DNA of 64,000 bases. Source: Heliopora coerulea (Eukaryota; Cnidaria; Anthozoa; Scleralcyonacea; Helioporidae). The notes under the pieces are model-generated. The model worked only from the letters and a program-made list of their open reading frames with translations, did no database searches and was not told the DNA's origin. Where the stretch lies: assembly GCA_030142905.1 (NCBI GenBank), contig JASJOG010000188.1, positions 62,001-126,000 on the forward strand. Direction: 5' to 3'. The translations under genes and the position numbers were made by a program. Shown here in pieces: positions 1,193-32,276 of this stretch (positions are counted from its first letter, which is position 1; every line of letters starts with the position of its first letter).

Positions 1193-1819
1193 GACCTCCA
1201 GATATTCATCTTATTTCAAGAGAGGACGTTCATCCAACTGAGTTTACCTGGGATGGAAAAACAGTTGATGTTGTCCTGTTAACAGTCAATGAACGCGAGT
1301 TCCTCGCGGCATATGAGATTCTAAAAGATCCTTCCACGGCAGCTGTAGGGGATCTGGGGCCGGCATACTTCGGTGGTGTTGGTAATGTTGAAGTGGCTTT
1401 GGTGGAATCAGAAATGGGCGCTAACAACATCTCGGCAGCACAAGAAACCTGTAGAAAAGCCGTCGGTCTAATCAAACCAAAAACAATTATTTGTCTCGGG
1501 GTATGCTTTGGTTTGTTGAAAAAAGACCAAAACCTAGGCGACCTACTGATATCTCAGAAAATTCAAAGATATTCTCAAGTTCGCGTCAATGACGATGGCT
1601 CAAGAACGCCAAGAAGTGAAAGTTTTTCGGTGAATAGTGAACTTTTCAAACTTTTTAAAGATGGACGAAATGGCTGGAATTCGCAACTCAGCCGACATTC
1701 GGTTAAGGTCCACACCGGTACAATTCTATCCGGTCCTGAACTTATCGACAATGCAGTGCGTGGAATGGAGTTAAAAACAACGTACCGCGAAGCTCTTGGT
1801 GGAGAAATGGAAAGTGAAG
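1193..1819 (+). CDS. PNP/UDP-phosphorylase (nucleosidase-like) domain, exon A
   Basis: Encodes 209 codons covering most of a purine-nucleoside-phosphorylase/MTA-SAH-nucleosidase fold. The family cleaves the N-glycosidic bond of purine nucleosides; in animal and bacterial conflict proteins the domain serves as an effector fused to STAND ATPases. Visible signatures: strand 1 with VVLLTVNEREF near codon 25, the Gly-rich YFGGVGNVEVALVESEMG segment, the KTIICLGVCFGL strand, and GGEMESEG at the end, matching the Met-Glu substrate-binding motif. I start the exon at 1193 because a pyrimidine-rich tract ending in AG (1191-1192) precedes it and this gives phase 1. The open frame extends back to ATG 1057, so an unspliced start there is the alternative. 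The donor is AAG|GTATGC at 1820; the exon ends with one base of a Gly codon (phase 1). The frame closes 17 bases into the intron. Confidence 0.85.
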
Positions 1820-1846
1820 GTATGCGCAAGAATTAAATAACAGATT

Positions 1847-2081
1847 GATGTTTAGGAAACTGCTTCAATCATTATCTATATATAGTGGCTTCCGCTTAGG
1901 TCGCACATATATATATCGAATTTGCAACTTAGCTCGCCATCTGAGTCTCGGTAGCTCAATGGTTAGAGCGTCTAACCGGTCATCAGAAGGTTGCGGGTTC
2001 GATCCCCGTCTGGGGCTCAGATATCATTTTCTGAGTATCGAGCTTGAAGATCGTTCATCTACTTCAATTAAATAACAGATT
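1847..2081 (+). mobile_element. tRNA-derived SINE copy 1, with target-site repeat
   Basis: A tRNA-like core (about 1951-2018) has a box A-like TAGCTCAATGGTTAGAGCG and a box B GGTTCGATCC. The anticodon loop lacks the usual T at position 33, so it is a SINE rather than a functional tRNA gene. The same leader (GTGGCTTCCGCTTAGG) and tail occur in copies near 25.7, 29.1, 29.3 and 50.5 kb. A 16-bp direct repeat flanks it at 1831-1846 and 2066-2081, as expected of a retroposed insertion. It lies 11 bases after the PNP exon A splice donor. Confidence 0.85.
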
Positions 2082-2261
2082 AGTGGCTATCGACAAACCA
2101 GGCGGGAACAGTAATTCGAATATGAAAATCAATGCCCAGCAAAACAAGGGGAATAAAGCCATGAGCACAAACTTTGAATTTAAAATATTTTAATGGTTAT
2201 ATTTTGTTCCATCTTGCAATATCATTAGAGCTAGTGTGACAAAATAGTTAAGAAGAATCAC

Positions 2262-2823
2262 ATTTATATTATAGTCAAGGACGAGCTATATCGAATTACA
2301 AAGTGACACTAGGAAGCATCACCGAATAAATTGAAATAAAGAAAGAACTAATATTACAGTTGACAGAAGGCTTGATTTCTTTACTGTCAATGTTTTCTTG
2401 TAAGGGAAGCTAAAAACTAGGGGAACAGGAAGAAAGAATACTTTAATCATTGAAGGATAAGGGGTGACCAGTTTCGCGGTGATGGGACAAAATGCTTAAG
2501 AGAGTAGGATTACTGGGTTTCTTCGCTTGTGTGACTGAAATTCCGTTGTGGTCAGAGATACGCGTATAAATGTGTCGACAAGTTTTCCCGACACACATTG
2601 CATCACAGCATTGACACAAACAAATAAACGATGTGTGATCTCAGACCACAAGAAATGCTGTCCTTGACCCGGAAAGGAAAGAAATTAGAGAGGCAATAAA
2701 CAGCACCTTCTTTCAACTCTAATATAAGTTTCAACCCTCTTTCTTTAATTTGATTTATTCGGCGATGCCTCTAAGTGTCATCTTTGTAATACGATATGCC
2801 TCTTCCTTGACTGTAATATAAAT
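2262..2823. repeat. Inverted repeat pair around a Penelope-like fragment
   Basis: Arms 2262-2362 and 2715-2823 are imperfect inverted copies; shared stretches include the sequence around AGTGACACTAGGAAGCATC and its complement. They enclose the GIY-YIG fragment. The unit could be a foldback of a Penelope-like element tail or a MITE that captured the fragment. Confidence 0.6.
2440..2640 (-). pseudogene. GIY-YIG endonuclease fragment (Penelope-like element)
   Basis: Reading the - strand gives CVGKTCRHIYTRISDHNGIS followed by an ILSHHRETGHP-like segment. This is the [Y/C]VGKT-R-L-x-R-x-x-[E/D]H signature of the GIY-YIG nuclease at the C-terminus of Penelope-like retroelements. A stop interrupts the frame upstream and no reverse transcriptase is present. 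It is a short, 5'-truncated relic. Confidence 0.7.
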
Positions 2824-2914
2824 TTGATTTTCCTTAAAGTGCTTATCCAGCGTGTGGGGATTTTATATATTCGTATTCTTTGGATTTTTCAGATTAAAAA
2901 TCTAATAAATCTTA

Positions 2915-3795
2915 AGCCTAGTTTCCATATAGTTGTAATTGTTGTAATTCCATCGGCGATAATCGGCGACGGAATTACAACATTTTAGTTTCCATATCGT
3001 TGTAATTGTTGTAATTCGTCGCCGATTTCCCGCTAGTTCACAGGACTTCTCGGTCGAACAATCGCCGATTTCTGTCGAAACTGCGCATGCGAATGTACAG
3101 TTTACATGGCGTCTGGAAAGGCAGTTCTGTAGTAAGTCTATTTCTATAACAAACTGAAGATTGTAAGCAATCGTGAGGGAAAAGCACTGCGAGAAGGATG
3201 GCACGGCTAAACAGAAGGGTGCTTCTACATGCCCAATGCGTACTACTTTTAGCCATGGCTCGCCAAGAATTGGCCTTCTTGTTTTTGTCGCGGAAATCAA
3301 CTGAAGACCGCTTATATGCAGCAGGATAGTTTCTAACAATGTCCATGAACTCTTCGTTACTGATGTTTGAGTCGCCCATTTTTATCTCGAGTCGTTTAGA
3401 TCGTCTTTTGTCAGCCTTCTTCTACACTAAATTCTAGTTTAAGGTTTCTCTTTGGAAATGGAATCAATCCACGCGAGTCTCGTGATTGCGATACTTTACT
3501 ATGGCAACAGAAGATGTGCCATGATTGGCTACTCATGTCACGTGCCTTCTTTTTATCGGCGACTGTCGGCGACTGTTGTAGAAAGCGTTTCCATTAAATT
3601 TGACCGCATCAGCGACTGTTGTAATTGTTGTAGAAGTTGAACTCGATTCAACTTCTACAACAGTCGCCGATTCATCGCCGATTGGATTACAACAATTACA
3701 ACACGCGTTTCCATATAGTTGTAATTGTTGTAAGGGCTCATCGCCGATTATCGGCGATAGAATTACAACAATTACAACTATATGGAAACTAGGCT
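2915..3795. mobile_element. PIF/Harbinger-type element (881 bp)
   Basis: Terminal inverted repeats begin AGCCTAGTTTCCATATAGTT and are mirrored at the right end. TTA target duplications lie at 2912-2914 and 3796-3798, the 3-bp TWA duplication typical of Harbinger. Several internal copies of the subterminal motif (TTGTAATTGTTGTAATT, CGGCGAT) occur near both ends. It carries a MADF-domain gene piece but no DDE transposase, so it is a deletion derivative. Confidence 0.88.
3038..3379 (-). CDS. MADF (Myb/SANT-like) DNA-binding protein fragment of the Harbinger element
   Basis: The 113-residue frame begins MGDSNISNEEFMDIVRNYPA and continues with an SSVDFRDKNKKANSWRAMA-like segment. This is the MADF pattern of a helix starting F-[IM]-x-[IL]-V, a Y-P pair, the charged D-x-R-D-K-x-K linker and an aromatic W in the next helix. 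Harbinger transposons usually encode such a protein beside the DDE nuclease, where it helps bind the ends. After about residue 45 the similarity stops; this may be an intron boundary or the deletion junction. It is probably not functional on its own. Confidence 0.65.
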   Translation of the reverse strand: MGDSNISNEEFMDIVRNYPAAYKRSSVDFRDKNKKANSWRAMAKSSTHWACRSTLLFSRAILLAVLFPHDCLQSSVCYRNRLTTELPFQTPCKLYIRMRSFDRNRRLFDREVL

Positions 3796-4411
3796 TTACA
3801 TTTTGACAATTTCAACTTCATGGAGATTTTCGCGGTCAAAGTTTGAAATTTTGCACTTTAGCAGTGAGAAAAAAACATAGATAACTATTTACCGGAAGTG
3901 ACTTCAAATTGGGAACGAATGAGATCTGTAGTAATTGATTTACCTAGCACAAGATTAGGTTTCTGTTTGAAGAAATCGATTTTTGTTTCGACGAATTGCT
4001 CAGAATTGTTCAGAAACATTCAGAAATTCCCGTCATTATGGAGAAGAGCCTGCAGAAGACTAACGATACAAATACGTCTGCGTCGGTTAGAAAGGTCATA
4101 AACAGTGGATGACTGGTATGCGAGATTGTCACCATGTTTCTCTTTAGTCTTGAATGTTTCAATATTTTGGCACAATTTCTAGTAAGTGAAGAACCAGGCA
4201 GGAATCGTAATCTCAGAGTAAATATAAGTGTCCCACTCAATACGCAGTTGTGTATTGTGAAACCAACTCAGTTGGAATGCAGTGCTCGGTTTTTATTGTG
4301 CTGTGTACCTATATTTATTCAAAATCCTCGATTCTTACGATGATATTTTGACTCTATTCAAAGTCATTGTCAAACCAAATGAGTTAGTTTGAAAATATGC
4401 AACCGTGTAGG

Positions 4412-4599
4412 CAGTAGCGTAACGGAATAACAGGGAGCCCTTAGTAGATTTTCTTTCGGGGCCCCGTCACCCGCCTTGCTATAGGCATACATTTCAAGAC
4501 TTTTATCTCAATTGCCTATACAGATTCATTGGAGGCCCCTTAGAGGTCGGGGGGCTTTAGGAGTTGTTCTAACCCTGGCCATAGTCCGTTACGCCACTA
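4412..4599. mobile_element. hAT-type MITE (188 bp)
   Basis: Ends are CAGTAGCGTAACGGA and its near-complement TCCGTTACGCCACTA. An 8-bp duplication CGTGTAGG lies at 4404-4411 and 4600-4607, the length used by hAT transposons. No coding sequence. It is nested in the interior of the inverted-arm element. Confidence 0.8.
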
Positions 4600-5150
4600 C
4601 GTGTAGGGTTCTGGGCACTTTTAATTTTTGCAATGATTACGACTCTCGCCTCGGTCTTAGCGTACTAGGGATTGTGCTAAAATAATGACACATTCATGAC
4701 TGAAGGGAAACATAGCGATAGTCTCACATACAACTATCAGTGACTTTATTAGCGGGGCACAAATTCCTAGTAACTATCTGCGTTTCACCTTCCCCTTTTT
4801 CAATGTTTAGTGGTGAACAATGGTGAATTTTGTGCGATTCTTTGCGCCGAGACTAATTATTACTTGTTACCAAACAACATTGAAGTGGGGGGAGGGGAGG
4901 GTATGTTAGATTTGTGAAATTTCGGGGGTCGAGTAATGATTTGGTGAGGTGTCCCGGTCTAATTCGTCACTCATTGTAGTTATTCACTGATTCTGACCTA
5001 TCTAACCAACTCAGGCGTTCTTCTAAGCGCTCTTCTTCTGCATGTCTTTCTTCGTAATGACGGGTCATTCATTCTTCGTCCACCAAAGGTTCCCCTTCCT
5101 AAGGTTGGACCTTATCGTCAGCATCATTGTTGAATGCGTAATTTGTCGTG

Positions 5151-5169
5151 CCCCCCCCCCCCCCCCCCC
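5151..5169. repeat. Poly-C tract
   Basis: A run of 19 C residues. The length in an assembly may be unreliable. Confidence 0.9.
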
Positions 5170-5866
5170 TCGACCTCAATGACGTCTGTCTTTGAGTCGT
5201 CTCGGTTATAATCCGTGCTTAAAGAAGAAGGCATGCTTGAAAATGCTTCTGCATGTTTCCGAACAATTTTGTGCAATTGTTCGAAACAAAAATCAAGTTA
5301 TTCAAACAGAAACCTAACCTTGCGCCAGGTAAATTACTTACTGTAGTTCTCATTCGTTCCCACTTTGACGTCATTTCTGGTAAGTAGTTACCGGTGTTTT
5401 TTCTTACGACCAAACTGCAAAATTGCAAACTTTGATCTTGAAAATTTCCATGGAAATGAAATTGTCGCAAAGCATGATATGTCACACTTTTAATTCGGAA
5501 AGACCCAAAGAATGCGAACTTATAAAATCTGCACACACGGGATAGGCACTCGCTGTGACGACACTGCCAGTTGCAACAAAACGTAAGCATTAAATTATTT
5601 TAAACTCAAAGTTTGTGATCATGGCTTTATCCCGTTTGATTTGCTGGACATTGATTTTTATCTTCAGATTGAATACCAGATTATTAACTGCCAAGATCAC
5701 TCTCATGATGTCTCTCTCTCTACACCTCTGTATGTCTTTCTGTCTCTGTCTGATCGTCTATCCAACAACCTATCTCTCTATATCTTTGTCTCCGATACTT
5801 TTGACCCGATGTTGAGTTTTTATTTCAAGTTGTGCACAAGAGTCCCGAACTAAGCTTTATCCCCTC

Positions 5867-5935
5867 GCCCACCTCGCTAAGCGTGGTGCGATGGTACTAA
5901 TCTCGACGTGCGTGGAGTCCTTTTAGTGACTAGAA
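5867..5935. repeat. Dispersed repeat, copy 1 of 2
   Basis: Shares the stretch TCTCGACGTGCGTGGAGT and neighbouring sequence with 63594-63668. Both copies sit shortly before a TA microsatellite. The family is not recognised. Confidence 0.6.
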
Positions 5936-5979
5936 ATAAAAATTTTCGCATTCTGTATCTATGTTTATATATATATATA

Positions 5980-7322
5980 CGAGGGTCATCCAAAAAGTAA
6001 CGCCTGTTGTACAAGATCAGAGAAATTTTATTGTTTACATACACAAACTATATATGAAAATGACCGGAAATATGTCAGGAACACAACCCTATCCCTCAAT
6101 ATAGTCTCCTCTATTGTCCACAGCTGCTGTCCAGCGCTGTATCAGAGCCTCTATTCCTACCTCGTAAAAGGAGGATGGTTGTGAGCGGAGCCAAGACCGA
6201 ACAGCTGTCATAACCTCTCCATCAGTCGAGAATCGCTGACCACGCAGTGCTTCCTTCATCGGTCCTAACAAATGGAAGTCTGATGGAGCCAAATCAGGGC
6301 TGTACGGTGGATGGGGCAGCGTGGTCCACCCATGGCGGGTGATTTCCTGTCTGGCTCGCAAACTTGTGTGGGGACGGGCATTATCGTGCTGAAGGAGGAC
6401 ACCATCCATGTTGAGATTGGGTCGGCAAACGCCGAAGTCTGTTTTTCAGTTTGTTTAGAGTCGCAATGTAGGCGTCAGAGTTTATGGTAGTGCCTTTGGG
6501 CATAAAGTCAACCAATATCACACCCTAATAATCCCAAAAGACTGTAGCCATCACCTTGCCAGCGGACGGCTGCGACTTGAATTTTTTCTTTCTTGGTGAG
6601 TAAGAATGTCGCCATTCCATCGACCTTCTTTTGCTTTCTGGCTCGTAATGATGAACCCAGGTTTCATCCCAGTGACAATTCTTTTCAAAAATGTGTTATC
6701 ATCACTATGAAGCCGCAGAAGCTCAGTGGATGCCTCAACTCGTTGCTCCTTCATGGCATCTGTCAGCTGCCGTGGAACCCACTTTGCACAGACCTTGCTG
6801 TAGCCCAATTTACTGACCAAATTGCCTGCACTACCTCTACTGATGTCTAGTGGCTCACTTATCTCAATAATTGTAATCCTCCTGTTTTCTTTGATCAACT
6901 CATCAGTGCTTTTCAAGTTCATGTCTGACACTGCATGAGCAGGCCTTCCACTTCTTGGCTGGTCAGTCAGCACAGCCTCACCTTTGGCTGTTTCACCACC
7001 TTTAATACTGCTTGCCCATCTTCTCACATTGCTCACATCAAGAGTGTGATCCCCATACACATTTTTCAGCCTTTTGTGGATGGCTGCAGCACTTTCTCCC
7101 TCCAAAACCAAGAATTCTATCACAGCTCTTTGTTTTTTACATATTTCAGCATGGGCGGCCATCTTGGAAATGGAATTCTGGGAATGGAGGGAGCACACAA
7201 CTCCAAATTCATGATCACAATGAAGTAAACTTATGGTTGAATATGTTTTTCAAATTTGAAACAAATCCGCCTAAACCTGGAGAAATTATGGCTTAGCAGG
7301 CATTACTTTTTGGATGACCCTC

Positions 7323-7323
<1 letters not shown>
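5980..7323 (-). mobile_element. mariner element (1344 bp)
   Basis: Terminal repeats begin CGAGGGTCATCCAAAAAGTA at 5980 and are mirrored, ending at 7323. TA lies on each side, the mariner target. The length is typical for the family. The element sits in a TA microsatellite that also hosts the following Tc1 element. Confidence 0.92.
6089..7198 (-). pseudogene. mariner transposase, frameshifted
   Basis: The N-terminal 215-residue frame (7198-6551) holds the helix-turn-helix region and the WVPRQL linker signature. The C-terminal frame (6409-6089) holds LLQHDNARPHTS (second catalytic Asp) and YSPDLAPSDFHLL (third Asp region), which indicates a DD34D mariner. Where the first catalytic Asp (GDETW-type motif) is expected, near 6666, the frame is lost; the reading suggests a one-base loss in a G run. 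A further in-frame stop occurs near 6525. The gene is therefore broken and probably immobile unless helped in trans. Confidence 0.9.

Positions 7324-7361
<38 letters not shown>
7324..7361. repeat. TA microsatellite between two DNA transposons
   Basis: About 38 bases of alternating TA. Its left end forms the target TA of the mariner element and its right end borders the Tc1 element. Confidence 0.95.
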
Positions 7362-7363
<2 letters not shown>

Positions 7364-8786
7364 GCAGTGGAATTAAGTTTTTTCATCCCCAAGACAATAT
7401 ACTGCAACATGTTGTGTGAATGTCAGACAAGCTGTTCTCCGTACAAAAACGTAGAAGTCTTAAAAATATTGATGATTGCAATTATTTATTACCACTGTCA
7501 GTTACATTCAACATGTCATGCATAATTTTCTGAGATGAATTCTTCTTAATACATTGTATGCCCACCCCTAGCTTTGATTACAGTATCAATTCGTGTGGGC
7601 ATTGAGCGCGCCAAGTTTTGGCAAGTAGATGCTGATATTTGCCCCCCAGTGATGAGAAGCCATTTCCCACAAATCATCTAAATTTGTGGGTTTCTTATTC
7701 TCAATTTTTTCCAAGCTCCTGCCAGAGATTTTTGATTGGGCTCAGATCTGGACTCTGAGCTGGCCAATCCATGACATTGACGTTACTGTCTCTCAACCAG
7801 GTCATGCATTTCTTGGCCTTGTGACAAGAGGTATTATCCTGCTGAAAAATGAAGTTGTTATCATTGCCAAAAAATTCCCTAGCGGATGGTAGCATTGTAC
7901 TGTAAAGAATGTCAACGTATTGGTCTTGCCGCATGGAGCCCTTCACACGATGGAGTTTTCCAAGCCCTGAAGCTGTCATGAATCCCCACACCATGATGCT
8001 TCCCCCTCCAAACTTGACAGAGGGCAAGATACAGTCCGGATGAAACCTTTCGTTCTCGCGACATCTAATGTAAGCACGTCTGGGGTGGCAGATTTGAAAT
8101 GTAGATTCATCATTCCAGATGACCCTTGCCTATTGCTCTGCTGTCCAATGGCGGTGTTCTTTAGCCCAAGCCAACCGCTTTGCTTTGTGTACAATATTAA
8201 GCAGAAGCTTCTTGGCAGCTATCCTGCCATTCAGACCCATTGTTTGAAGCCTCTTTCTAATGGTTATTGGGTGAAGATGGACATTGCACTTTTCCGCCAT
8301 TCACCTTTTTAGATCTACTGATGTTAGGGCTCTGTTCTTCAGGCCCATACTTTTCAGATGACGATCATCTCTTTGGAGTAGCCTTCCTTCTCGCCCGAGT
8401 TCTTGGAAGATCTTTAACTGACCCCGTTTCCTTAAATTTCTGTAACACTCTGGATACTGTTCACATAACAACACAACATTTTTATCAATTTTGGCCATAG
8501 ATGCTCCTTATTGATGCATCACCACCATCCATAATCCCTGTTATTTAGTGCAATTTCTTCTTTTAACCATGGCTAGCAGATTATTAGTTTCTAGTAGACG
8601 TGGGGTTTCTTGCCATCAGATCATCACATTGTACACAAAGACATTTTAAGGATGTTATGTTGAAGTAAAATTGTGGGATGTGCTCAAAAAATATTGCACA
8701 GAAAATTTGCAATAGTCAGATATGACCTTAGTATTTCATAACAACATACATTGTCACTAGGAAGACAAAACTTAATTCCACTACTG
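7362..8786 (-). mobile_element. Tc1-like element (about 1425 bp)
   Basis: Ends match as inverted repeats: CAGCAGTGGAATTAAGTTTT on the left, and the complement of CAGTAGTGGAATTAAGTTTT on the right. TA-rich DNA flanks both sides. The transposase relic runs on the - strand. Confidence 0.88.
7701..8498 (-). pseudogene. Tc1-like transposase, decayed
   Basis: Three - strand frames (8498-8301, 8194-7976, 8027-7701) together cover a Tc1 transposase. The last has GGGSIMVWGFM, then FIFQQDNTSCHKAK with the second catalytic Asp, then WPAQSPDLSPIKNLWQELG. At the third catalytic position the family has Glu (P-I-E-N-L-W); here it reads Lys, so the DDE triad is lost even within the readable frame. Frame changes separate the three pieces. 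Confidence 0.88.
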
Positions 8787-8856
8787 TATATATATATGTA
8801 TATATATACATTAGTGGAATTATATATATGTATATATATATATATATATATATGTA

Positions 8857-8902
8857 ACTACAGACGGAACCGTTTCGGCCTATTGGGCCTCATCAGTGTA
8901 GT
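8857..8902 (-). ncRNA. Type I hammerhead ribozyme, complete
   Basis: On the - strand in order: ACTACA (stem I, 5' side), core CTGATGA, stem II GGCC with loop CAATA and GGCC, core GAA, short stem III ACGG/CCGT, then GTC as cleavage site, then TGTAGT (stem I, 3' side). Stem I pairs perfectly over 6 bp and stem II over 4 bp. All invariant core bases are present. Stem III is very short, as in animal retroelement hammerheads that often act as dimers. Predicted cleavage falls between 8863 and 8862. Confidence 0.85.
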
Positions 8903-9084
8903 GCTGATGAGCAGGATGGAGAAGCCTACATTATATAGGCAAATCAAATGTCCCACGCTTGTGGTACATCTAAGCCATGCCAGAGCGCTCTAACTAGAGA
9001 CTAGTGAGCGTGCGCAAATGCACTGGCAGCATGACTCATCCTGTAGAGCGCTCAATATGAACCAAGAGGCCATAGAGCGATATC

Positions 9085-9106
9085 TAACTACAGACGGAAC
9101 CGTTTC
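9085..9106 (-). ncRNA. Partial hammerhead (3' part)
   Basis: The - strand reads GAAACGGTTCCGTC followed by TGTAGTTA, identical to the 3' half and cleavage site of the complete hammerhead. The CTGATGA core and stem II are missing. It marks the other end of a 230-nt monomer. A shorter remnant (GGAACCGTTTC) recurs at 9127-9138. Confidence 0.75.
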
Positions 9107-9177
9107 TATGTATATATATGTACATATGGAACCGTTTCTATATATATATGTATCATATATATATATATATATGTATG

Positions 9178-9271
<94 letters not shown>

Positions 9272-9382
9272 TGTATATATCACTAGTCTCTAGTTAGAGC
9301 GCTCTGGCATGGCTTAGATGTACTACAAGTGTGGGACATTTGAGTTGCCTATATAATATAGGCTTCTCCATCCTGCTCGTCA

Positions 9383-9424
9383 GCACTGATGAGGCCCAGT
9401 AGGCCGAAACGGTTCCGTCTGTAC
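9383..9424 (+). ncRNA. Hammerhead ribozyme with damaged stem I
   Basis: Reads CTGATGA (9386-9392), stem II GGCC-CAGTA-GGCC, GAAAC, stem III, GTC (9417-9419). Five bases (CTACA) present before the core in the left copy are absent here. Stem I can form only two or three pairs, so activity is doubtful. Confidence 0.75.
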
Positions 9425-9425
9425 T

Positions 9426-11100: not shown

Positions 11101-11229
11101 GCGAAAAGATGTCAGAAGTGACGAGGAGAGGTCAAGATGGCATAAAAAGACCTGAATATCAGGATTGAAAGTAGGATAAGGTTTTTCATTAAGTAGGCTT
11201 TCTCGGTTCCGGAGGTCAAAGATGGAAGA

Positions 11230-11490
11230 AAAGCAAGAAGAAAAAAGGATAGTGAAATCATCGGTTCAAACATGGTGACCAGTATCATGTATCAAAGAAT
11301 GCTGTTTGATGAAGGGTTGACACTATTTTTACCAGTTACAGCAGAAATTCCCACGTGATCGGAGACACGGGTGTGGAGACGTTGACTACTCTGACCAACA
11401 TGCAACGCGCTGCAGCATCAAAATTTCAAACGATCCACGACACCAGATTTACGACCCTTGGGAACTCTGTCCTTAACCCTTTATGTGGCA
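11230..11490 (-). pseudogene. GIY-YIG fragment of a second Penelope-like element
   Basis: The - strand reads HVGQSSQRLHTRVSDHVGIS, followed by an AVTGKN segment. This is clearly related to the fragment at 2.4-2.6 kb ([CY]VGKT..H..TR.SDH.GIS). Stops occur on both sides. It is a short relic with no reverse transcriptase attached. Confidence 0.7.
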
Positions 11491-11637
11491 CTCTTGCTAT
11501 TCTGCAACTTATTATATAACTCTGTCTAATGCCGGGCAATTTTACATGTCAAGGGAGACCTCCCGGCAAATTGTTACTTAAAGGGTTGAAGGCGAAACAT
11601 TGTGACAATGTGTTTGTTTTTACTTCCTTTACTTCAG

Positions 11638-11787
11638 GGTTGATTGGCCTAGGAGTGCCTTTCATTGTGTGTAAGAGTATCACAGATTGGGCTGATGGCT
11701 CCAAAACAAAAGAGTGGCAAAAGTTTGGCGCCAAAGTGTCTGCTTCCTTTGTGAAACACGTCTTAAAGTCTAAAAAGTTTAAACAAG
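11638..11787 (+). CDS. PNP/UDP-phosphorylase domain, exon B
   Basis: Completes the PNP fold. It encodes GVPFIVCKSITDWADGSKTK and the KVSASFVKHVLKS helix. S-I-[TC]-D-x-[AG]-D-G is the family motif whose first Asp acts in catalysis on the purine N7. The acceptor is a strong pyrimidine tract ending in TTCAG (11637) and the donor is CAAG|GTGAGT (11788). Both ends are phase 1, so exon A joins in frame. Between GGEMESEG and VPFIV the loop is about four residues shorter than is usual in the family; a missed micro-exon in the 9.8-kb intron is possible. Confidence 0.88.

Positions 11788-18676: not shown

Positions 18677-18709
<33 letters not shown>
18677..18709. repeat. ATT microsatellite, 3' tail of a retrotransposon
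   Basis: (ATT)n run directly beyond the 3' end of the - strand RLE fragment. Read on the element's strand it is a TAA tail. Confidence 0.9.
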
Positions 18710-18710
<1 letters not shown>

Positions 18711-19096: not shown

Positions 19097-19139
19097 ATTA
19101 TATTTCCTGTCAGACAGGTCTTATGTCGTCAAAATTAAC

Positions 19140-21265: not shown

Positions 21266-21269
21266 CTAT

Positions 21270-22500: not shown

Positions 22501-22503
22501 CAG

Positions 22504-22899
22504 GGATTGACAATATGGGCAATCGTAATCAACAACAACGGAAACTAGAAATTGATATTAATGTGACCATAAATCAGGCTGACACAGCAGCGGTAAGCCT
22601 ACATGCACATTATACCAGCAATGACTCAACAAAGGAGGAAATTATGAGTATATTGAGAAACATCTTTGAGAGATCTATTGGTGGAAAAATCGATCCAGAA
22701 ATATTAAACATTTCCAAAGGATCTCTTCGCATGATACTACGTTGCTACTCACAGCAAAGCTTTTTGCAATTTCTTCATGATTATGAAACAGGAAGAGCAA
22801 AGGAGCGTTTGAATAAAGAATTCTCAAAAATAGGGATTGGCAACGTTATCTTAGAAATTGCTAATGCAGAGGAGATCAAAGAAAAGAAGAAAAATTTAG
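22504..22899 (+). CDS. TRADD-N-like adaptor domain, exon C
   Basis: A 396-base exon encoding 132 residues. The visible pattern is an N-terminal KLEIDINVTINQ strand, a helix STKEEIMSILRNIFERSIGG, a strand in ISKGSLRMILRCYS, then FLQFLHDYETGRAKERLNKE. The combination of a GS-[LV]-x-[IL]-x-L-x-C strand followed by L-x-D-Y-x-[ST]-G is what I associate with the TRADD N-terminal domain family. In animal and bacterial STAND/NLR proteins that domain sits between an effector and the ATPase. Acceptor TTCATGCAG (22503) and donor TTAG|GTAGGT (22900) both give phase 1, in frame with exon B. The family name is inferred from the pattern; a profile search is needed to confirm it. The exon itself is strongly supported. 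Confidence 0.75.
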
Positions 22900-22904
22900 G
22901 TAGG

Positions 22905-24400
22905 TAATACTTCGTTGAATTTTTGGCTGTCCAATAGAACTAGAGTTGGTATTCCAGATAAACTGGGTGCACCTAGGATTTCAAAAAGGCGAGTCAAAAA
23001 AGAGAAACTACTAAAAAATAGAAAAATTAATTTTATGTCAAAAATATACAAAACATGGTTACAATTTTTTGAATAAAAATGCTTTATTTTGATTTGTGAC
23101 AGGGAATTTGTCCCATTAGTGCAGGGGAGAGAAATGCCCCTATCTTGGTAACGTCATTGTGAGTTTCAAGGTAATCAAGAATAAGAAGAAAAAGTAGAAG
23201 AGATCCTATTGTGTCTTAGTTAATACCTTAAATACAGCCCTCATTTTAACACGTATGAGACGCTCTTTTCACGTAGAAACGTGTTTGACGAATCCACTAG
23301 TGAAACAAAAATGCATGAACAGCTCGCTTTCTGTATATGCTGGACGGATTCAGCCTAAAATCAGACCGGTGGTCAATTTTAAAAGTAGAAATCCAGAATG
23401 CGGTTTTCTCACCTCCTGACTATAAAATCATCATTCTGGGTTCAAAGGATTGCGGACAATCATTTTACGTTTACTTAAGTTTTGTTTTGTTGTTGCAGTA
23501 AGCAATAATAACCGCATTCTTATCTACGTAATGCTCTTCAAATACAATGACTAGACAACCCAGATATAGTGTACATATGGCCAGAAAACATCCATCAAAT
23601 TGAAGTACAAAAAACAAACATGTACTAAATCTCGTTTTGATCAGTTAAACGTCCTAAGTATTAAAGCGGTTAGGATCATGACCTCTTCTCACTTTCACAC
23701 TCACGCCCCACCTGTTTATAAGCTGCTAAGAATTCTCCAATTGAAAGACATTGTTTAAGTCTCATTGCTCTGTTAAATAACATGGTTCACGCTACACAGC
23801 TGGTTATATCAATTTTTCAAAGCTGAGACCTTACTTCCTGTTGCTGACTGCTGCTCCCACGAAATCATACTGTACAATCATTGGCCACCAACACTTCACT
23901 CTTGTTGAAAACCCTCAGCAACAGGCTATTTTTAGTATCAATTGTTGATATCGCCATTTCTTCGATGTCACCCTAAACGTTTCAATGATGCTAGATTTTG
24001 TTGCAAGTTGCACTCGAGCTCCTTTTTAGGGGCTCTCGTGCCGGCTGACAAGACAACCATGCGAGAAAATATGAATTGTAACCATCATTATCGAAGAAAA
24101 CCCGACATTTCAGAGTTTTGTGGTCAAATAAGCGGCAATCGGCTTCTTTCGACACTTACTGGGATAGGAAAGTCGTGCGGAAATCAAAAGCTTGTTCTTA
24201 ATTTATTTTTGACCAGAAAATCTCATTGTAGCTTCAACAACAGTCACTACGGTCTGGATCCACCCCTGTTTCAGGGCCAATTTTGACAACTATTTCACAA
24301 CCGCGAAGTCCGAAAGCAATATTGACTGCAGCTCTGGAATAATGCTATATAACTTTTCGATAGATCTTACCAGCTCGTGGGGAAGTTTAAGATAAATTGA
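22905..24400. other. No gene recognised
   Basis: Intron between exon C and a hAT derivative. No recognisable coding or repeat structure. Confidence 0.45.
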
Positions 24401-24407
24401 TTTAACC

Positions 24408-24979
24408 CAGGGATGTCCAACAGGCGGCCCGCGGGCCACAGCATGGCCCCCGAAGCCTTTCAGTGTGGCTCGCGTCAAGCTTTTATTTCTATTATACGTG
24501 CGCGCATGTCGAACTTTTTGCTGTTTTTTAAATGATTGAAATCCGCGTGTGACCGTACTGAGAGTGTGACATCTTCACCTTAGCTTGACAAGCTACTTCC
24601 GCTTTTGTTTTCTTGTTAGAATTATAACTATTGTCTAAAATAAAAATTTCTGTCTGAAAAACATCCAAATTTGTCACATCATGCCAAAAAAATGATCTCT
24701 CTTTTTGGTAGCACATGTTGCTGTGAGCAGTTTTTCTCAAAAATGAAGCTCACTAAAGGCAATTGCCGAAGTCAGTGCAAATTGTGCAAATTGTGCAAAG
24801 ACATAAAGTACCAAGTATCACACTAATAAAATTTGAATTGTTATTGTGTTTATTTCTTTAATGGAAAATATGCTAATACAAGTAATTTCTATTTAAAACG
24901 TGTATTCTTGGGGAAGACTGGCCCACGTTATTCCAATCCTCTGATGTGGCCCGCCAATGAAAATTGCTGCACCCCCCTG
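24408..24979. mobile_element. hAT-derived element (572 bp) with relic of the dimerisation domain
   Basis: Starts CAGGGATGTCCAAC and ends GCTGCACCCCCCTG. The flanking 8-mers ATTTAACC and ATCTAAGC agree at six of eight positions, which fits an old hAT target duplication. The terminal GGCGGCCCGCGGGCC and the mirrored TGTGGCCCGCC are typical of the animal hAT/Charlie-like group. On the + strand near 24700-24790, CEQFFSKMKLTKGNCRSQ resembles the C-terminal dimerisation motif (C-E-Q-x-F-S-x-M). It is an internal deletion of an autonomous copy. Confidence 0.75.
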
Positions 24980-25035
24980 ATCTAAGCAATCTATCCTGCA
25001 ATGCATTGCAAATTTTTAGTGAATACCACAGTCTT

Positions 25036-25567
25036 TCTACTATAATTTATTCATCGAAATTAACGCGTTTTACGAGTGGTTATTTAAGATATTAATGTTG
25101 TTATCAGGTAGAGAATTAGGGAGCTATCAACTAAGGGTCTGGATCGATCAACAGGTAGAAAATATTAATCTTAACCGTCTTATCAATATAAGTTAGTATG
25201 CCGTGCTTACTGCTCGCTCCAAATCAGATTTCCCACGGCCGATTACGTCAGTTTTTCATGACTATCTCAATTATCTTAATCGAAACTACTTATATTTGCA
25301 TTTTTCATTATTAATTTTTGGGTATAGTTCATCATACTTCGCTATTGATCTGAACGCTCCCAGACAGACATGCTGTGATCTCTCTTGGGATCTGTTAGCT
25401 ATTGATCATCCTTGATCATTCACTCCCCAAAATCCAAAAAGACCAATTGCTCAGTTCTTCAGGCTGCCTTCCGTGAATCAAGAACGTCTGTTGCTTAAGC
25501 TCTCAATTCTAATTTTATACTATTATGAGGAAATTTCTGTTGAGCGTATAACCCAGTGGTTACTAAA
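25036..25567. repeat. Long dispersed repeat, copy 1 (pairs with 48954-49482)
   Basis: About 530 bp align in direct orientation with 48954-49482, for example AACGCGTTTTA, AGGTAGAAAATATTAATC and CAGACATGCTGTGATCT. They differ by scattered substitutions. No coding potential was recognised. At its right end this copy meets the SINE array. Confidence 0.8.
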
Positions 25568-25573
25568 GGGTTC

Positions 25574-25874
25574 ATGAAATTTATGTTGGTAGTATGAGAG
25601 CTTGGAAATATCATGAGATGATAGATGAATGATCGTCAAGCTTTATCCTCAGAAAAGCGAATTCTACGCCCCAGACGGGGATCGAACCAGCAACCTTCTA
25701 ATGACCGGTGAGACACTCTAACCATTGAACCACCAAGACTCAGATGGAGAGCCAAGGTGCAAGTTCGACATATATGTGGGACCTAAGCGGAAGCCACGTT
25801 ATTTTAATGACGATATAGATTATGGATGAAATTTATGTTGGAAGTATGAGAGCTTGGAAATATCATGAGATGAT
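25574..25874 (-). mobile_element. tRNA-derived SINE copy 2 between 49-bp direct repeats
   Basis: On the - strand the tRNA-like core (about 25668-25743) contains box B GGTTCGATCC and the same leader and tail as copy 1. It is flanked by 49-bp direct repeats at 25574-25622 and 25826-25874 that differ at one base. Sequence similar to the SINE tail also follows the second repeat, so the arrangement may be part of a tandem unit of about 252 bp rather than a target duplication. Confidence 0.8.
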
Positions 25875-25888
25875 AATGGTCGTCAAAT

Positions 25889-25929
25889 ATATGATATATA
25901 AAATATATCATATATATATATATATATAT

Positions 25930-25960
<31 letters not shown>
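25889..25960. repeat. TA-rich microsatellite
   Basis: ATATATC and TA units over about 70 bases. Confidence 0.9.
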
Positions 25961-25966
<6 letters not shown>

Positions 25967-26158
25967 CTATTTTCTTATCTGAACTTGTACTTGAAATTTT
26001 TGTAAATGATACCTCCATATCTCAAGAAAACAGAATAAAATAGAGTATCGCTACAAACTTCAAGATATTCTATTCGATGGTACACACTGGTACCTTAAAT
26101 CCGTCACTGGCACCTTTCATTTCTTAGTAGTATAAGCTATAGTGAACGAATCTTAATG

Positions 26159-26768
26159 TCAAAGTTTCTTCCACTTTGCTACTGGCACGAATACCTCGAC
26201 ATACTGTACTTCTTCAAATCTAATCGGGGTATCATCAACCTGAACAACGATGCCCAGCCGACTCCTCATCAACTTAATGATGTCACAAGAACAGTGGACC
26301 CCGTAATACTGCGTTTTTGAAGATAAATTTACCATTTTTATCAACGTCCCATAAATCAATAAGTTTGTTTTCCAAGCAGGGTTGATTATTAATTTACATT
26401 TGATTTCGATTGTCCGATGTCGATTGTCAGCCAAAGTGTTTTGTCTTTTAATAGGTTGCCTTTGGGTTTTCGTTTGAATTCAGAGATATCAAAAAGTCAT
26501 TATTCGGTAAACAAATCTCATTGTCACCCTGAAGATGACTCTGACTCAGTTAAACAATTAATTACCCACCACCATAATCTCTCTCAAAACAACTCTATCC
26601 CGAACAATATACTTTAATTATCAATCAACATATCTTGCTTCTGTTTATTCACAAATTCCTGATTTTGGAGGTGATTCTTCTTCAGGAAGTGGAAACATTA
26701 ATAAACAACAGCAACAGTCGACTTCAAGACTATTTTCTCTCGTACCGTCGATCACTACAGTGTTTTAA
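26159..26768. other. Coding-like remnants of unknown family
   Basis: The - strand frame 26434-26159 ends with PIRFEEVQYVEVFVPVAKW, which has protein-like composition. On the + strand, 26500-26768 reads EDDSDSVKQLITHHHNLSQN, then after a one-base shift YLASVYSQIPDFGGDSSSGS, then LVPSITTVF and a stop. I do not recognise either. They may be pieces of a transposon gene. The strand and relationship are unresolved. Confidence 0.3.
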
Positions 26769-26856
26769 TATATGACCACTAAAGGTTGATTCAATTCAGT
26801 TACGATTTTCATTTTTGAAACATACATATACCGGTAACTGCTTTTTGTTTTTCAAG

Positions 26857-26925
26857 GAACAAAACCCTCAGAAGAGATAACGTTTAAAGGCAATGAATCA
26901 AGCACGACTGCACCGTTAGCTCAAG
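26857..26925 (+). CDS. Linker exon D of the PNP/TRADD-N-like gene
   Basis: A 69-base exon reading TKPSEEITFKGNESSTTAPL, then AQ. Acceptor TTTTTCAAG (26856) and donor CAAG|GTGAGT (26926) are good, and both ends are phase 1, continuing the frame from exon C. It is Ser/Thr/Glu-rich and probably an unstructured linker. Its KPSEEITFKGNESS pattern resembles exon F (KPTTEINMQGGESQ), which suggests duplicated linker exons. Confidence 0.65.
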
Positions 26926-26929
26926 GTGA

Positions 26930-29040
26930 GTTTGCCAATTATTGTATCGACTACTATTGTCCGGAGAAACAAGTCTTAAACGGATAACTATCAAGCGGCT
27001 GACCGGAAAAGTTCGGAAATATTAGTAACTGTCAGCTTACTAAAGTGATAAAGTAGTAACTGCCAACCCAATGACTACTTAAAACTTTTTCAGTAAACAC
27101 AAAGTTATAGTCCAAACAAAACACATCCAAATTGTTAGGTGAACAACTATAATATATCCAGTGATCATATTTTATTATGAATTGGATAATTACCCATAGA
27201 CAAGTTGGTGGATGCATTTTTCAATGCTCTTTCTCAGATTTCTATCAGATTTCTCCGCCAAATAGGCTGTCCAGGCCTCTTACAATGGACTCATTAGCCA
27301 ACGAAAAAAAACACCCAGTTGCAAATGATTTTTGCAAAGACTTTAACCATCTCATGTTCAAGTAGTCGAGCTCTCTACTATTTGCGGCGCCAGACGTCCT
27401 AGTCTAGGAGAGGATATTGAGGGACAAACAAAATTTTTAGGCTGGGCAAAACCTCGTCGAAAATATGCAAAATTTAATGAACTCCTGTAAAATATCATAA
27501 AACTGTACTAATAACCATTAGTTTGCCTTCAAAATGTGTTTTTCATGCATAAATAGCGACGGAGATAAACAAATCTTACACGTTCAATGCGAGTTTTGGG
27601 AGGGTATCGGCAAAATGGGTAGGGGTGGATACAATAATTTTTTTCTAAGGAAGCAAATGTCCCCTGATGCCCCTCACTTTCCGACGCCACTTCAAATCTC
27701 CAACGAATTTCGAATATTCAGTATACGGTTTGACAGCTGATGCCTCTAATTTAGATTTGGATTAAGCAACTTGAATATTCGCTTCTGAGCGAATAGTACC
27801 AATAATGCGAATAATATAAATTTAAATACTGACCAAATAAAGAATATACGAAATTCGAACACTATTACTTGTCGAACGACCAGACACGTGATAGATTATG
27901 AATAATTAGAATTTTCGACCCGAAGATGACAACAAAAACACCAACCAGAATGACATGTGATTGAATAAAGAACTGTGCACTTTGATTAGCTGATACATTT
28001 TTCATGGCGGGATAAGATACATGAAAGTGAGATTGGAAAATGGCCACCATTTTGACAAAGTTTAAGGAAGCGAGACACTTAAGATCAAAAAAGGAAAAGA
28101 TTCCGTATTAACCGACATATTGGCTTATTTATGGCCCTAGTTTGATTGTTCTGGTTTTCAACCTTGTCAAATCGGGAAATCAAGCAAAAAACAGCAACTT
28201 CAAATTATTTTAGATATAGCATTGTTAAAAACTGATTAAATACGCAAGCAAGAGGAGCCCTGTCGCTGCTACTTCTCTCAACTTTTTCCTATATACTCGC
28301 AGTATCATCCCGTTTCCTCTCTAGTGGGACGCTTCTTTCGCTTCTCAAAATAATCGGTCAGCAAATGATTCAGAGACCAGGGTCGCTTTCTAACCTCTCG
28401 ACCTTAAGGAGGGCTACTTATTTGAGGCAGCCTTAACATAGAATGTTTATATTTAATTCCTTCGTCGACGGAAACAAGAATTTTTCCATTGCGGTTTTTA
28501 AATTGAGATATGTATCTGTTTCCAATAACGTCATGAACATATGTCAGTGGTCAATAAGTAGTGCTTTGGGTACCGTTTATCGGTTATTAAGGCATCATTA
28601 TGATTGATCATTAAGTATGCAAAAATGTGTTACTTAAATGACAAAGTGCTCAATTTGAAATCAACTTACTTTGTTAGTTACTTCGTTATTCTACCGTACT
28701 TTCGACTTTAATCAACCTCCCAACCTATCCAGCGTTAGCGCCTTTTGTGAGCATTAGTTCTTTTTGGCTTCAATGTATTTCGTGGTATTTTTTCTAATCA
28801 GTTTTAGCAGTAAAGGTGCGTTGTCTTTACTTTTCGAAAACTTTAATAGTTCCACGTATCCTGTCTTTTATGAACCTTATTAACAAGTAACAGAATGTAT
28901 CATTTTACACATTTGAAGTCCAATATATTTTTTTGAATACGTGGAAAAAATGTAGAAACACCAAAAAAATGAAATAAGAAACCATGTAGTTATCCACGAT
29001 GCACACGTGGCAGCGTCATGGTGATATCACGGGCGATATA
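26930..29040. other. No gene recognised
   Basis: Intron after exon D. No domain, RNA gene or element ends were recognised. Confidence 0.45.
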
Positions 29041-29048
29041 CAAATATT

Positions 29049-29440
29049 TTTCTGTGGCTGCCGCATTTATCACACATATGTGAAACTTGCACCTTAGTTC
29101 GCCATTTGAAACTTGATAGCTCAATGGTTACAGCGTCTCATTGGTCGTCGGAAGGTTGCGGGTTTCATCCCCGTCCGGAGCTCAGAAATCGTTTTTCTGA
29201 GGTACGAGGTTATCGAACGTCCAACGAACATCTGCAACCTCCCACATTCCTAATATCAACCGTACTCGACAGAATTATTAACATATTGTGGCTCCTGCTT
29301 GGGCAACACATATGTTGAACTTGCACTTTAGCTCACCATTTTAGTCTGGGTAGCTCAATAATTATAGTGTCTCATCGGTCGTAAGGTTATCGATTCAACC
29401 CCCGTCCAGGGTCACAAACCGTTTTTCTAAGATATGCGGT
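29049..29440 (+). mobile_element. SINE copies 3 and 4 in head-to-tail tandem
   Basis: Two units with a period of about 234 bp, each beginning GTGGCT[CG]C[CT]GC at 29054 and 29288 and carrying a tRNA-like core. Copy 3 has box A-like TAGCTCAATGGTTACAGCG and a damaged box B (GGTTTCATCC). Copy 4 is more decayed. Both tails contain CGTTTTTCT. Confidence 0.8.
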
Positions 29441-29966
29441 TAACCAACGTCGACATGTCCGAGACTGAAAATGATTCCATGAACTGGGTTAAACTTATTC
29501 TCTTAAACTCTGCTGAAAACATACAAAACTGGAAAGCTATGAAAGAAATTGCAAAGAACTTAAAAGGATGATTTCGGCTTTTAAGCCGGAAAATAATGCA
29601 TGGTCGTATTTATCAGGGTACTAGTTATGTGGAAGGAATTAAATCTGGGCTGAAATGTCAGTCCCGCTAATAGGGCTAAAATTTCTAAAGTTCATTTTGG
29701 GATAAAATATTAAAAGCTATAGCAGAATGCCTCCCACACGAAAGATTTGTGGTAGCAGGTCACTGATCGGTCGCTTGTAATAAGCAATGCACGAGATATG
29801 TGTGATACACATGACACAGGATACGATTGAAATAGTTTCTCATATACGATACGAGTTCTATTAAGTGAATACTAATGATATTGATCATATCAGTATTACC
29901 TGTGATAGGTATGATGATATACATTATACTTAGAATGTGAGAGGCGCGTTTACTACAAATGATACG

Positions 29967-30181
29967 CAGGCCCGCAGAGAGACAACAGAGTTCCCCCCCC
30001 CCCCCCCCCCAACCTTCAGGTTATGGCCTATCCGCCAAAAAGAGTTTCATTCGGGATTACAGCGAGGCCTTTAAGGCATTTTGAGGAATTCTTAAGAATA
30101 AGGCCTTCACAATCTGAGGCCTCTCGGAGTACGAGGCCCTGGGGCAATCTGCCCCCCTTGCCCCCCCTCTCTGCGGACCTG
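29967..30181. mobile_element. hAT-type MITE (215 bp) with poly-C
   Basis: Ends are CAGGCCCGCAGAGAG and CTCTCTGCGGACCTG. An exact 8-bp duplication ATGATACG lies at 29959-29966 and 30182-30189. An 18-base C run (29993-30010) and C-rich sequence near the right end lie inside. Non-coding. Confidence 0.85.
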
Positions 30182-30189
30182 ATGATACG

Positions 30190-31855
30190 CTTGACACATA
30201 GCATACAAGTGATACAGGTGAGCCGTTTTGTGTAAGTGAGACGTGATGCTCAATAACCCAAATCGTAACATTATTTAACATTCCTTCCTCTCGAGACCAA
30301 TTACTCTCCTGATTACTAACCTAGTCTCCAGCAGAATAAAGTAAAGAGGGGAATGAATTAATCGAGTAACATTGCATGCAAAATAATTTTTCCAGAGCAG
30401 CATATAAATTTGCAAACCTCTCTGAAAACATCCTTTTGCTCTAAATCTAAAAACGACTTGACCGTTTATAAAGTTGAATTATATTTAATATTGTCATAAA
30501 ACTAGACAAAACTCGATCGCAGAAACTCGTTGCAGAAACGCTAGTTCAATATGCATAAAGTAAGACTGAAAAGGAGTTGTGCAGGTCTCCCAGATACATC
30601 ATTTTTGTTTTGTTGATGCCATATGCCGGGCCGGTCAAAATTCACTGGAAACAAGTAGTTAAAGCAGAAATTTTAAGACAGAGAAGAAGAGATTTACAAC
30701 ATGTGGGTTGGCTAGTTTGGAATGTATTTAGGAACCAATGTGTTTGAACAACTTGAATTTCACACGGCTCCCACGAGTTAGAACAACATGATATGGGTGC
30801 GAACAATCGATAGAGGAGGTGGCTAAATCGACAAAAATATCCACCGAAATTAGAGGATCGAATAAATCAATCTAACTCCCCGAAGAAATCATGTTTATTT
30901 GTTCGTGGATATCAGGGGGGGGAATGACCAATATCAAATCATGAAATAACTCTCGTGACTACCAATAGAGCTGTGGACAGGAATACGTTTTATCGAGCGG
31001 TATGAAAAACGTTTATAACACAAATAAAGAGAAATCATGAGACTGTGGGAGGGACAGGACAAGAGGTTGAAATAGAGCGGTTAAAAGTAGGAAAGAGCAA
31101 ATATGACAAATGAGACTTGCTTAGAGGCCAGTAGGTATGTTACGAGGGAAAAAAAAGAAAAAAAAGAATGATTCCATACGATCGTTTCTGACACTAGTTC
31201 CCATCCCATATAAGTTAGTAAAACAAACTCAAATATAGTTTTGGGTGATTGGGCAACTTCCCTTGGTTTTGAGGGACTAAAGAGAACCAAGGAAGCTCGG
31301 CATTTCCTCAATGAATAAAACCAATAAAACCATAGTATTGGATGGTCAGTGACTTAAATAGTACAGCTCTAGTGGGGGACCTGAACAGGGTCCTCATAAA
31401 TTTTGCCGAGAGCATTTAGCACATATTTGACGGGGTTCATCTGGAAAACTTAGGTGGGGATCATCTTGTACATCAGTAATCAGTGGGCGTATGGAATCAA
31501 TTTGGAGTGGCTGTGGAAATAACCAAGGTTTTTTATGGGAGGAGCCCTCCAGATCAGTTGTCGGCCAGACAAAGTTGTAATCTTCAAATACGATTTTATA
31601 AACAAACCTGGTTGGCATACAGATAACGCCGAATGCCACTGGCAGCGACGAAAAGCCTCTTTGCTGAAATATGGTTGTAGGAAAATTCAACTATTGTTCT
31701 TATCCTTTACGGAGTTCCCATGGCATTTCTTTGCATTCTTGATGACTTTTAGATCTATTTCTTGATACATGCGGATAATGGGCAATTAATCAACCCCCGT
31801 CGACGATCACATCTCAACGCGGACCTAAGTTAAGCTCCTGTCAGCGAACATACTC
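30190..31855. other. No gene recognised
   Basis: Intron sequence. A frame of about 100 residues near 31.39-31.69 kb (- strand) has no recognisable motif and is not called. Confidence 0.4.
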
Positions 31856-31859
31856 ACCC

Positions 31860-31894
31860 CTGATGATGACACGAGACTCAAGTATCGAAACGTC
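31860..31894 (+). ncRNA. Hammerhead-like motif of the Penelope type
   Basis: Reads CTGATGA (31860-31866), a poorly paired stem II region, GAAA (31887-31890) and CGTC. This is the CTGANGA...GAAAYRUC order with a two-pair stem III. Stem II does not pair well, so this is probably a decayed copy. Confidence 0.4.
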
Positions 31895-32228
31895 GAGTTT
31901 CCTTTTCGGGTATTTCACGTAGTGACTATCTCCAAGATATCAGTCAAATGTGTTCTTTCGTGTACATTTTATATGGTTGTACAATGCAACTCACGGTTGG
32001 CTTGTCTTGGGGGTTTCGGCGGACTTACTCGTCCAGTCCAAGAATTTTTGCTTTCTGTAGCAGGTTTCAATGTAATAGCGTAGTTTGACCATAGTCAAAT
32101 TGAGAAGTTTAAAGGAACTTTTCTTATTTGCTGTAGTTGGGGATTTAAAAAAGTAGTTTTTGTTCACAAATTAAAAAACACATTTATCAAGACTTATTGA
32201 AAATATTCTCGTTTTTCATCCTATACAG

Positions 32229-32276
32229 AGGTTGTGGAAGCATTTAAGAAAGAAACGAGTTCAACTAAAAGTTCAG
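32229..32276 (+). CDS. Linker exon E of the PNP/TRADD-N-like gene
   Basis: A 48-base exon reading EVVEAFKKETSSTKSS. Acceptor TCCTATACAG (32228) and donor TTCAG|GTAAAC (32277) are acceptable and both ends are phase 1. It is short, charged and Ser-rich, like exon D. Small exons are easy to over-call; the matching phase is the main support. Confidence 0.5.

Follow-up and report, generated by a model that had tools for sequence, protein, structure and literature searches.

The window analysed here is a 64,000-nucleotide stretch of the Heliopora coerulea genome (contig JASJOG010000188.1, here C99; C99:62001-126000), and its main feature is a predicted five-exon gene that begins with a PNP/nucleosidase domain and continues with a TRADD-N domain. 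With moderate confidence, we read the locus as encoding an intracellular protein of modular build that acts in immunity or cell death, in which an N-terminal PNP nucleosidase effector would be followed by a TRADD-N bridge and short linkers, with a Death domain possibly forming the C-terminus. The locus looks like an immune effector made of swappable exons, and not like the NLR-type receptor proposed by a first-pass annotation of the same DNA. Conflict or immune use, which that annotation also put forward, stands as the best-supported role on the sequence evidence. All comparisons within the genome were made against the H. coerulea assembly (429.8 Mb in 769 contigs), and copies at other loci are designated below by contig.

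The PNP and TRADD-N exons

The five exons lie on the forward strand. Each is bounded by AG on its 5′ side and GT on its 3′ side, each has a length that is a multiple of three, and the introns are of phase 1. Joined, they give a reading frame of 429 amino acids that is free of stops across all five exons; for this joined frame neither a start nor a stop codon was identified, nor an exon 5′ of the first. The predicted exons are as follows.

1193..1819, + strand: PNP/nucleosidase exon 1; first four fifths of the domain from the N-terminus, with GGEMESEG at the exon end; phase-1 acceptor and donor; PF01048 match
11638..11787, + strand: PNP/nucleosidase exon 2; C-terminal part of the domain, with the SITDWADG motif; AG/GT boundaries; matches in the own genome
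22504..22899, + strand: TRADD-N domain exon (exon 3); β-α-β-β-α-β, with GS in the β2-β3 turn; copies in the own genome
26857..26925, + strand: candidate linker exon 4 (69 bp, 23 amino acids); found by a strict splice scan; conserved in C238 and C94
32229..32276, + strand: candidate linker exon 5 (48 bp, 16 amino acids), weakly supported; AG/GT boundaries with a weak donor; conserved in C238

The joined protein matched the PNP_UDP_1 profile (PF01048) with an E value of 2.9e-16 over residues 30-249, covering positions 6-227 of the 233 in the profile, with a score of 60.1 bits against a cut-off of 25.1. Both GGEMESEG and SITDWADG are present and align to the EME and SD of structure 6po4, the N-terminal catalytic Glu lying outside the aligned region. 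We take the Glu of EME and the Asp of SD to be catalytic residues of PNP/MTAN-like enzymes. The closest solved structures, 14 distinct sequences with E values of 0.01 or less, were 5′-methylthioadenosine/S-adenosylhomocysteine (MTA/SAH) nucleosidases, and among the PADLOC models the protein matched a PN-superfamily effector (6.3e-11) and PDC-M60C (9.5e-13). The earlier call of a PNP/nucleosidase domain was therefore confirmed by a near-complete profile match together with both motifs. A housekeeping MTA/SAH nucleosidase was rejected as the principal interpretation, given that the best equivalog score, 49.4 bits, fell far short of its cut-off of 169 bits and that the genome holds 99 PF01048 matches (matches and not genes, some genes giving two).

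Exon 2 for its part had 104 matches in the genome, 28 of them at 77-100% identity and the C238 copy at 100%. For the position counts 103 of these matches were used. Of the 28 closest copies, 22 are preceded on their own strand, at no more than 15 kb, by an exon-1-type match, as are 42 of the 103 overall, and among all pairs of exons 1 and 2 separated by up to 15 kb, exon 1 came first in 43 and after exon 2 in 3, with none on opposite strands. Since the two-exon arrangement is repeated genome-wide, the join between 1819 and 11638 is well supported, and the two-exon PNP constitutes, as judged from these matches, a large family in this genome. At exon 1, the GT following the motif was seen in five of six copies, the sequence at this point being read in all but C42, and the acceptor at 1193 is accompanied in the C50 paralogue by upstream indels, the nearest 1 bp in size, that break the frame upstream.

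Exon 3 showed an RRM-like β-α-β-β-α-β fold with kinked helices, as in the TRADD-N superfamily, and could be structurally aligned to TRADD (1f3v) at 15% identity. Residues G72 and S73 lie in the β2-β3 turn, between strands 62-70 and 73-80, and are invariant in all 15 rows of the alignment; a small residue followed by Ser in this turn is described for TRADD-N in the text of Kaur et al. (2021, PMC8195603). A point that weighs against the assignment is that the exon alone scored 15.3 bits with PF20694, under the cut-off of 23.7. Homologues of the exon matched this profile with E values down to 3e-4, and its scan of the whole genome gave zero matches, even though seven further close copies of the exon (one of them partial) and six distant ones occur there; the model looks insensitive to this TRADD-N branch. 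A sequence search of the TRADD-N alignment against solved structures returned nothing significant. Taken together, the profile matches of the homologues, the fold and the GS turn bear out the TRADD-N call.

The two linker exons are weaker. In a strict splice scan of 22.9-64 kb, exon 4 was the sole candidate. A relaxed scan of 22.9-63.9 kb gave 17 candidates, and an equally long stretch of the minus strand, taken as control, gave 15, so exon 5 is not shown by splice signals alone. Both linkers are identical in the C238 duplicate (0/69 differences in exon 4 and 0/48 in exon 5), and the exon 4 protein is identical in C94, but this conservation weighs little because the surrounding DNA is 96-98% identical anyway. 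Thus, of the claim that five exons join in one frame, openness and compatible phase held for all five, and on sequence grounds exons 1 to 3 exceed chance, exons 4 and 5 being weaker candidates.

One transcript or two genes

We consider it likely that PNP and TRADD-N are carried on a single mRNA. The compatible splice phase speaks for this, as does the order of the domains in C99, C238 and C197, where a TRADD-N exon follows PNP exon 2 at no more than 30 kb in the same orientation. The introns of the C238 locus are 96-98% identical to those of the window, which makes that locus either a duplicate or the second haplotype, not an independent case. C197 is more telling, with a second PNP subfamily upstream of TRADD-N in the same order, its PNP exons being 42% and 51% identical to those of the window and its DNA match to the window starting, repeats aside, about 1 kb before the TRADD-N exon. 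Similarly, the matches of C94 and C70 to the window start 1.2 and 0.3 kb before that exon. Such a change of DNA ahead of TRADD-N fits recombination in the preceding intron; mobile-element insertions might also produce it, an alternative that is strongest in C94, where the upstream frames are mobile-element-like by eye. The phase-1 AG before TRADD-N is kept in five of the eight copies (C99, C238, C94, C70 and C197), and the exon-2 donor (AAG/GTGAGT) is strong, its GT being kept in both further paralogues read.

The alternative is that two adjacent genes are present, a PNP-only gene composed of exons 1 and 2 and ending two residues past the exon-2 donor, and a TRADD-N gene starting at codon 4 of 22504-22899. 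Several observations count in its favour and against a single transcript. Read-through past the exon-2 donor meets a stop after two residues in the window and after one in the 310-kb copy, so that a PNP-only product is possible, and codon 4 of the TRADD-N exon is an in-frame ATG. The phase-1 AG is missing in C47 and C529, and the upstream sequence of C475 is unrelated; in these three copies the TRADD-N exon may begin a separate gene. A TRADD-N exon lies within 20 kb downstream in just 3 of the 103 PNP exon-2 copies, leaving 100 without one. In the match lists used, C94, C47, C70, C475 and C529 have no same-strand upstream match to exon 1 (within 60 kb) or exon 2 (within 30 kb), the C94 contig ending 11 kb upstream, and C529 shows the opposite order, with exon 2 lying 13 kb past TRADD-N. 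Weighing against the main reading as a whole, and not for two genes, the TRADD-N exon of C238 contains an in-frame TGA, and that of C197 lacks its second half.

Database homologues also failed to join the two domains (0 of 16, comprising 6 and 10), but 15 of the 16 come from contigs shorter than 25 kb and all were seemingly called intronless, which makes the missing join uninformative and not contrary. Likewise, 8 of the 10 homologues of the TRADD-N exon start at the codon-4 ATG, which says little because these ten come from contigs of 1-23 kb and were seemingly called intronless. In C754, an exon-1 match precedes a distant TRADD-N exon by 35 kb, both having the same orientation. Against separate genes stand the strong donor, the phase-1 AG retained in most copies and the second PNP subfamily in the same order in C197. 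We regard two genes as the less probable arrangement, with a rather low probability.

Death exons and the search for an ATPase

Whether a Death exon ends this gene is more doubtful, and from the sequence we put it somewhat short of an even chance, because the script used for acceptors sought phase 1 only. C238 is colinear with the window to about window position 38996 and has a Death exon from about C238:181604, 8.1 kb past exon 5; the 3.5 kb in between was judged by its spacing, which equals that of the window within about 20 bases. The C238 block that carries the Death exon matches window coordinate 77671-78102 at 87.5%. Against such a tail, the first Death exon of C99 lies 45 kb past exon 5, behind an ankyrin exon that has its own ATG.

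The counts of Death exons that follow refer to 150 scored of 450 candidates in the genome. In C475, a Death exon lies 15 kb past the TRADD-N exon, and for the eight close TRADD-N copies, at least two cases (C238 and C475) with a same-strand Death exon within 25 kb downstream were observed versus 0.035 expected, an expectation that is too low because immune genes cluster and the density was taken from 150 of the 450 candidates. In C549, a Death exon lies 6.2 kb past PNP exon 2. All six Death exons examined were preceded by a phase-1-compatible AG, at least five of them with a pyrimidine-rich stretch by eye. A general PNP-to-Death order was rejected, as pairs occur in both directions: on the same strand within 20 kb there were at least two downstream and at least two upstream, and within 50 kb at least 5 downstream, at least 11 upstream and none on opposite strands. 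Co-orientation of PNP and Death is clear; their order is not.

The same-strand modules downstream of the window, ankyrin and Death exons, were picked by eye and then confirmed with Pfam. Four plus-strand Death exons lie past the window, at coordinates 77790, 103910, 115992 and 123185. The ankyrin-Death exons were rejected as part of this gene, since the ankyrin exon (70170) starts with an ATG and, read from the AG immediately before it, is out of frame for a phase-1 acceptor; they are treated here as probably separate genes. The ankyrin exon is itself doubled (70170 and 99638, with 90% protein identity).

In the first-pass annotation, the gene was taken as an NLR-type receptor with its STAND ATPase and repeats beyond the window. 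A search of the whole genome with PF05729 gave 55 NACHT matches, none of which falls on C99 (651.8 kb), on C238 (305.5 kb), or on C94, C197, C70, C475, C529 or C47. The parts do combine elsewhere: within a distance of 3 kb, NACHT lies downstream of 16 of the 103 PNP exon-2 copies (at 1-2.7 kb) and never upstream or on the opposite strand, and within 10 kb downstream, 2 of the 14 TRADD-N exons have a same-strand NACHT (at 2.2-5.3 kb), these two being distant members from C763. The genome thus holds PNP-NACHT and TRADD-N-NACHT arrangements, and by the NACHT search the window locus is neither. Where NACHT follows either domain it does so within about 1-5 kb, and together with the lack of a match on C99 and C238 this leaves the receptor proposal unsupported by the NACHT search and very improbable, an AP-ATPase of the NB-ARC type being the form that such a receptor might still take. 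As for TPR repeats, a Pfam scan limited to the joined protein gave TPR_30 with an E value of 0.17 and 12.7 bits, where the cut-off is 29.7.

Two loci are of separate note. On C174, 14 NACHT matches, which are all that this contig has and which belong to the 16 cases above, each lie 1-2.7 kb past a same-strand PNP exon 2, an apparent array of PNP-NACHT NLR genes, and the distant TRADD-N exons of C763 followed by NACHT are located at 180374 (2.2 kb) and 237051 (5.3 kb).

Evolution of the family and proposed role

The TRADD-N exon differed between C99 and C94 at 28 of 396 positions, versus 16 of 952 in the flanks (500-column stretches; p 1.9e-6), an excess that drift alone would not give and gene conversion might. 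Between C99 and C238 the values were 13 of 396 and 14 of 956 (p 0.05); these two pairs are the ones that were tested statistically. C99, C238 and C94, when paired closely with one another, showed an excess over both flanks; it was seen also in C70 versus C529, and in C197 versus C99, C238 and C94 with the upstream flank only, there being no downstream alignment. It was rejected as a general rule, because between C99/C238/C94 and C47/C70/C475/C529 it is the upstream flank, not the exon, that has diverged more.

For TRADD-N, the pN/pS ratio summed across 21 pairs from seven copies, pairs that are not independent (C197 excluded, the stop codon of C238 skipped), was 1.08 in the N-terminal half versus 0.54 from the GSL motif onward. 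In PNP exon 1, dN/dS was 0.59-1.26 in five pairs involving C50 or the 310-kb copy, and fast evolution was accordingly rejected as a mark of TRADD-N only; for C99 versus C238 it was 0.19, with mostly silent differences. Judged by these ratios, the family evolves fast while the TRADD-N core is held.

These data also bear on whether the locus is a decaying or unexpressed fragment in a transposon-rich region, its exons kept by recent duplication alone. The roughly 10-kb introns, in which frames resembling transposases were noted by eye, the TGA in C238, the truncation in C197 and the ratio of 1.08 in the N-terminal half agree with decay. However, all five exons of the window are open, PNP exon 1 changes mostly silently with respect to C238, constraint is stronger in the C-terminal half of TRADD-N, and in the closest tested pair the exon diverges more than its flanks. 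Decay therefore seems improbable to us, less so than the receptor.

Several known systems resemble the predicted protein. In the text of PMC8195603, PNPase-TRADD-N(-caspase) proteins are described in bacteria (e.g., AMV23994 of Gemmata) with a predicted counter-invader use, TRADD-N is modelled as a bridge releasing effectors, and PNPase is listed among the C-terminal partners of TRADD-N in the sponge Amphimedon. The bacterial proteins share with the window locus an N-terminal PNPase effector followed by TRADD-N; unlike the caspase-bearing form, the locus is animal, has phase-1 exons, and has Death and not caspase as its candidate tail. The same text reports cnidarian expansions of DEDD2-clade TRADD-N (17-168 copies), which have in common with this family paralogues with variable partners, fast evolution and nearby mobile elements. 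Among the cnidarian partners it names are GT4, HEPN, Macro, PARP, vWA and ankyrin, in contrast to the PNPase of the window locus, which this text names for bacteria and Amphimedon. The PNP-TRADD-N pairing itself is thus already named for bacteria and, in another order, a sponge, and the animal arrangement would be a variant of a predicted class.

Two further cases are mentioned in PMC4986451, which cites Hamada 2013 and Yuen 2014: PNP_UDP NLRs in a coral, Acropora digitifera, and a sponge combination of PNP and Death. They share a PNP effector in animal immune-type proteins, and the window locus differs from the coral NLRs in its TRADD-N exon and in that no NACHT was found. PNP_UDP modules are called ATP-hydrolysing or immune-related ATP nucleosidases in the text of PMC12881547 and PMC10197012, with reference to earlier work. 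Vertebrate TRADD (PF09034 plus Death) has the same TRADD-N fold (1f3v, 1f2h), the GS turn and possibly the C-terminal Death domain in common with the locus, but it carries no enzyme, and here the Death tail is a candidate only and the identity to 1f3v is 15%. Bacterial ATP nucleosidase immune effectors were reportedly described by Rousset et al. in 2023; a PNP-family domain is the common feature, the activity of the window protein being predicted and its nearest solved relatives being the MTA/SAH nucleosidases. Among the papers listed by the literature searches, judged by title and abstract opening and with supplementary tables outside the scope, none dealt with an animal PNP-TRADD-N-Death gene.

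In the proposed mechanism, contacts of Death and TRADD-N would recruit the protein to an activated complex and cluster it there, and clustering, or release of a TRADD-N clamp, would free the nucleosidase to act. Its predicted substrate would be a purine nucleotide or nucleoside (ATP, or of the MTA/SAH type), and its action would drain metabolism or make a signal, so that the infected cell would be killed or arrested. This choice of substrate and trigger is tentative. Equally conjectural is the broader idea of an enzyme-armed TRADD, a single animal PNP-TRADD-N-Death protein that would mirror the bacterial PNPase-TRADD-N-caspase, its effector swapped by recombination in the phase-1 intron before TRADD-N and its TRADD-N exon diversifying faster than its own introns; what was observed in this respect is that related TRADD-N exons are preceded by two dissimilar PNP subfamilies. 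Should the joined transcript prove real, a metabolite-destroying enzyme would be paired with a TRADD bridging domain in an animal, where the proposed TRADD-N switch could then be tested. The genome holds internal controls for effector exchange, namely PNP with NACHT, TRADD-N with NACHT, PNP near Death, and PNP with TRADD-N.

Other features of the region are repeats and mobile elements. Two Rfam tRNA matches lie at 1945-2017 and 61330-61401 of the window, the former within a stretch that recurs at related loci and is probably a tRNA-derived repeat. Open frames at 51587-55373 look by eye like those of a Gypsy-type retroelement, with a zinc knuckle, a reverse transcriptase and an integrase. An inverted repeat at 43029-44426, whose two arms of some 690 bp differ at 2 of the first 689 bases and are separated by a 10-nucleotide spacer, has the same 166-residue open reading frame on both strands, GIY-YIG-like by eye, and is either a foldback element or an assembly hairpin. 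Finally, the stretch from 55581 to 66171, past the window end, is repeated in tandem at 80945-91513 (offset of about 25.4 kb, 98.7% identity over 10.6 kb) and carries a hAT-like element by eye.

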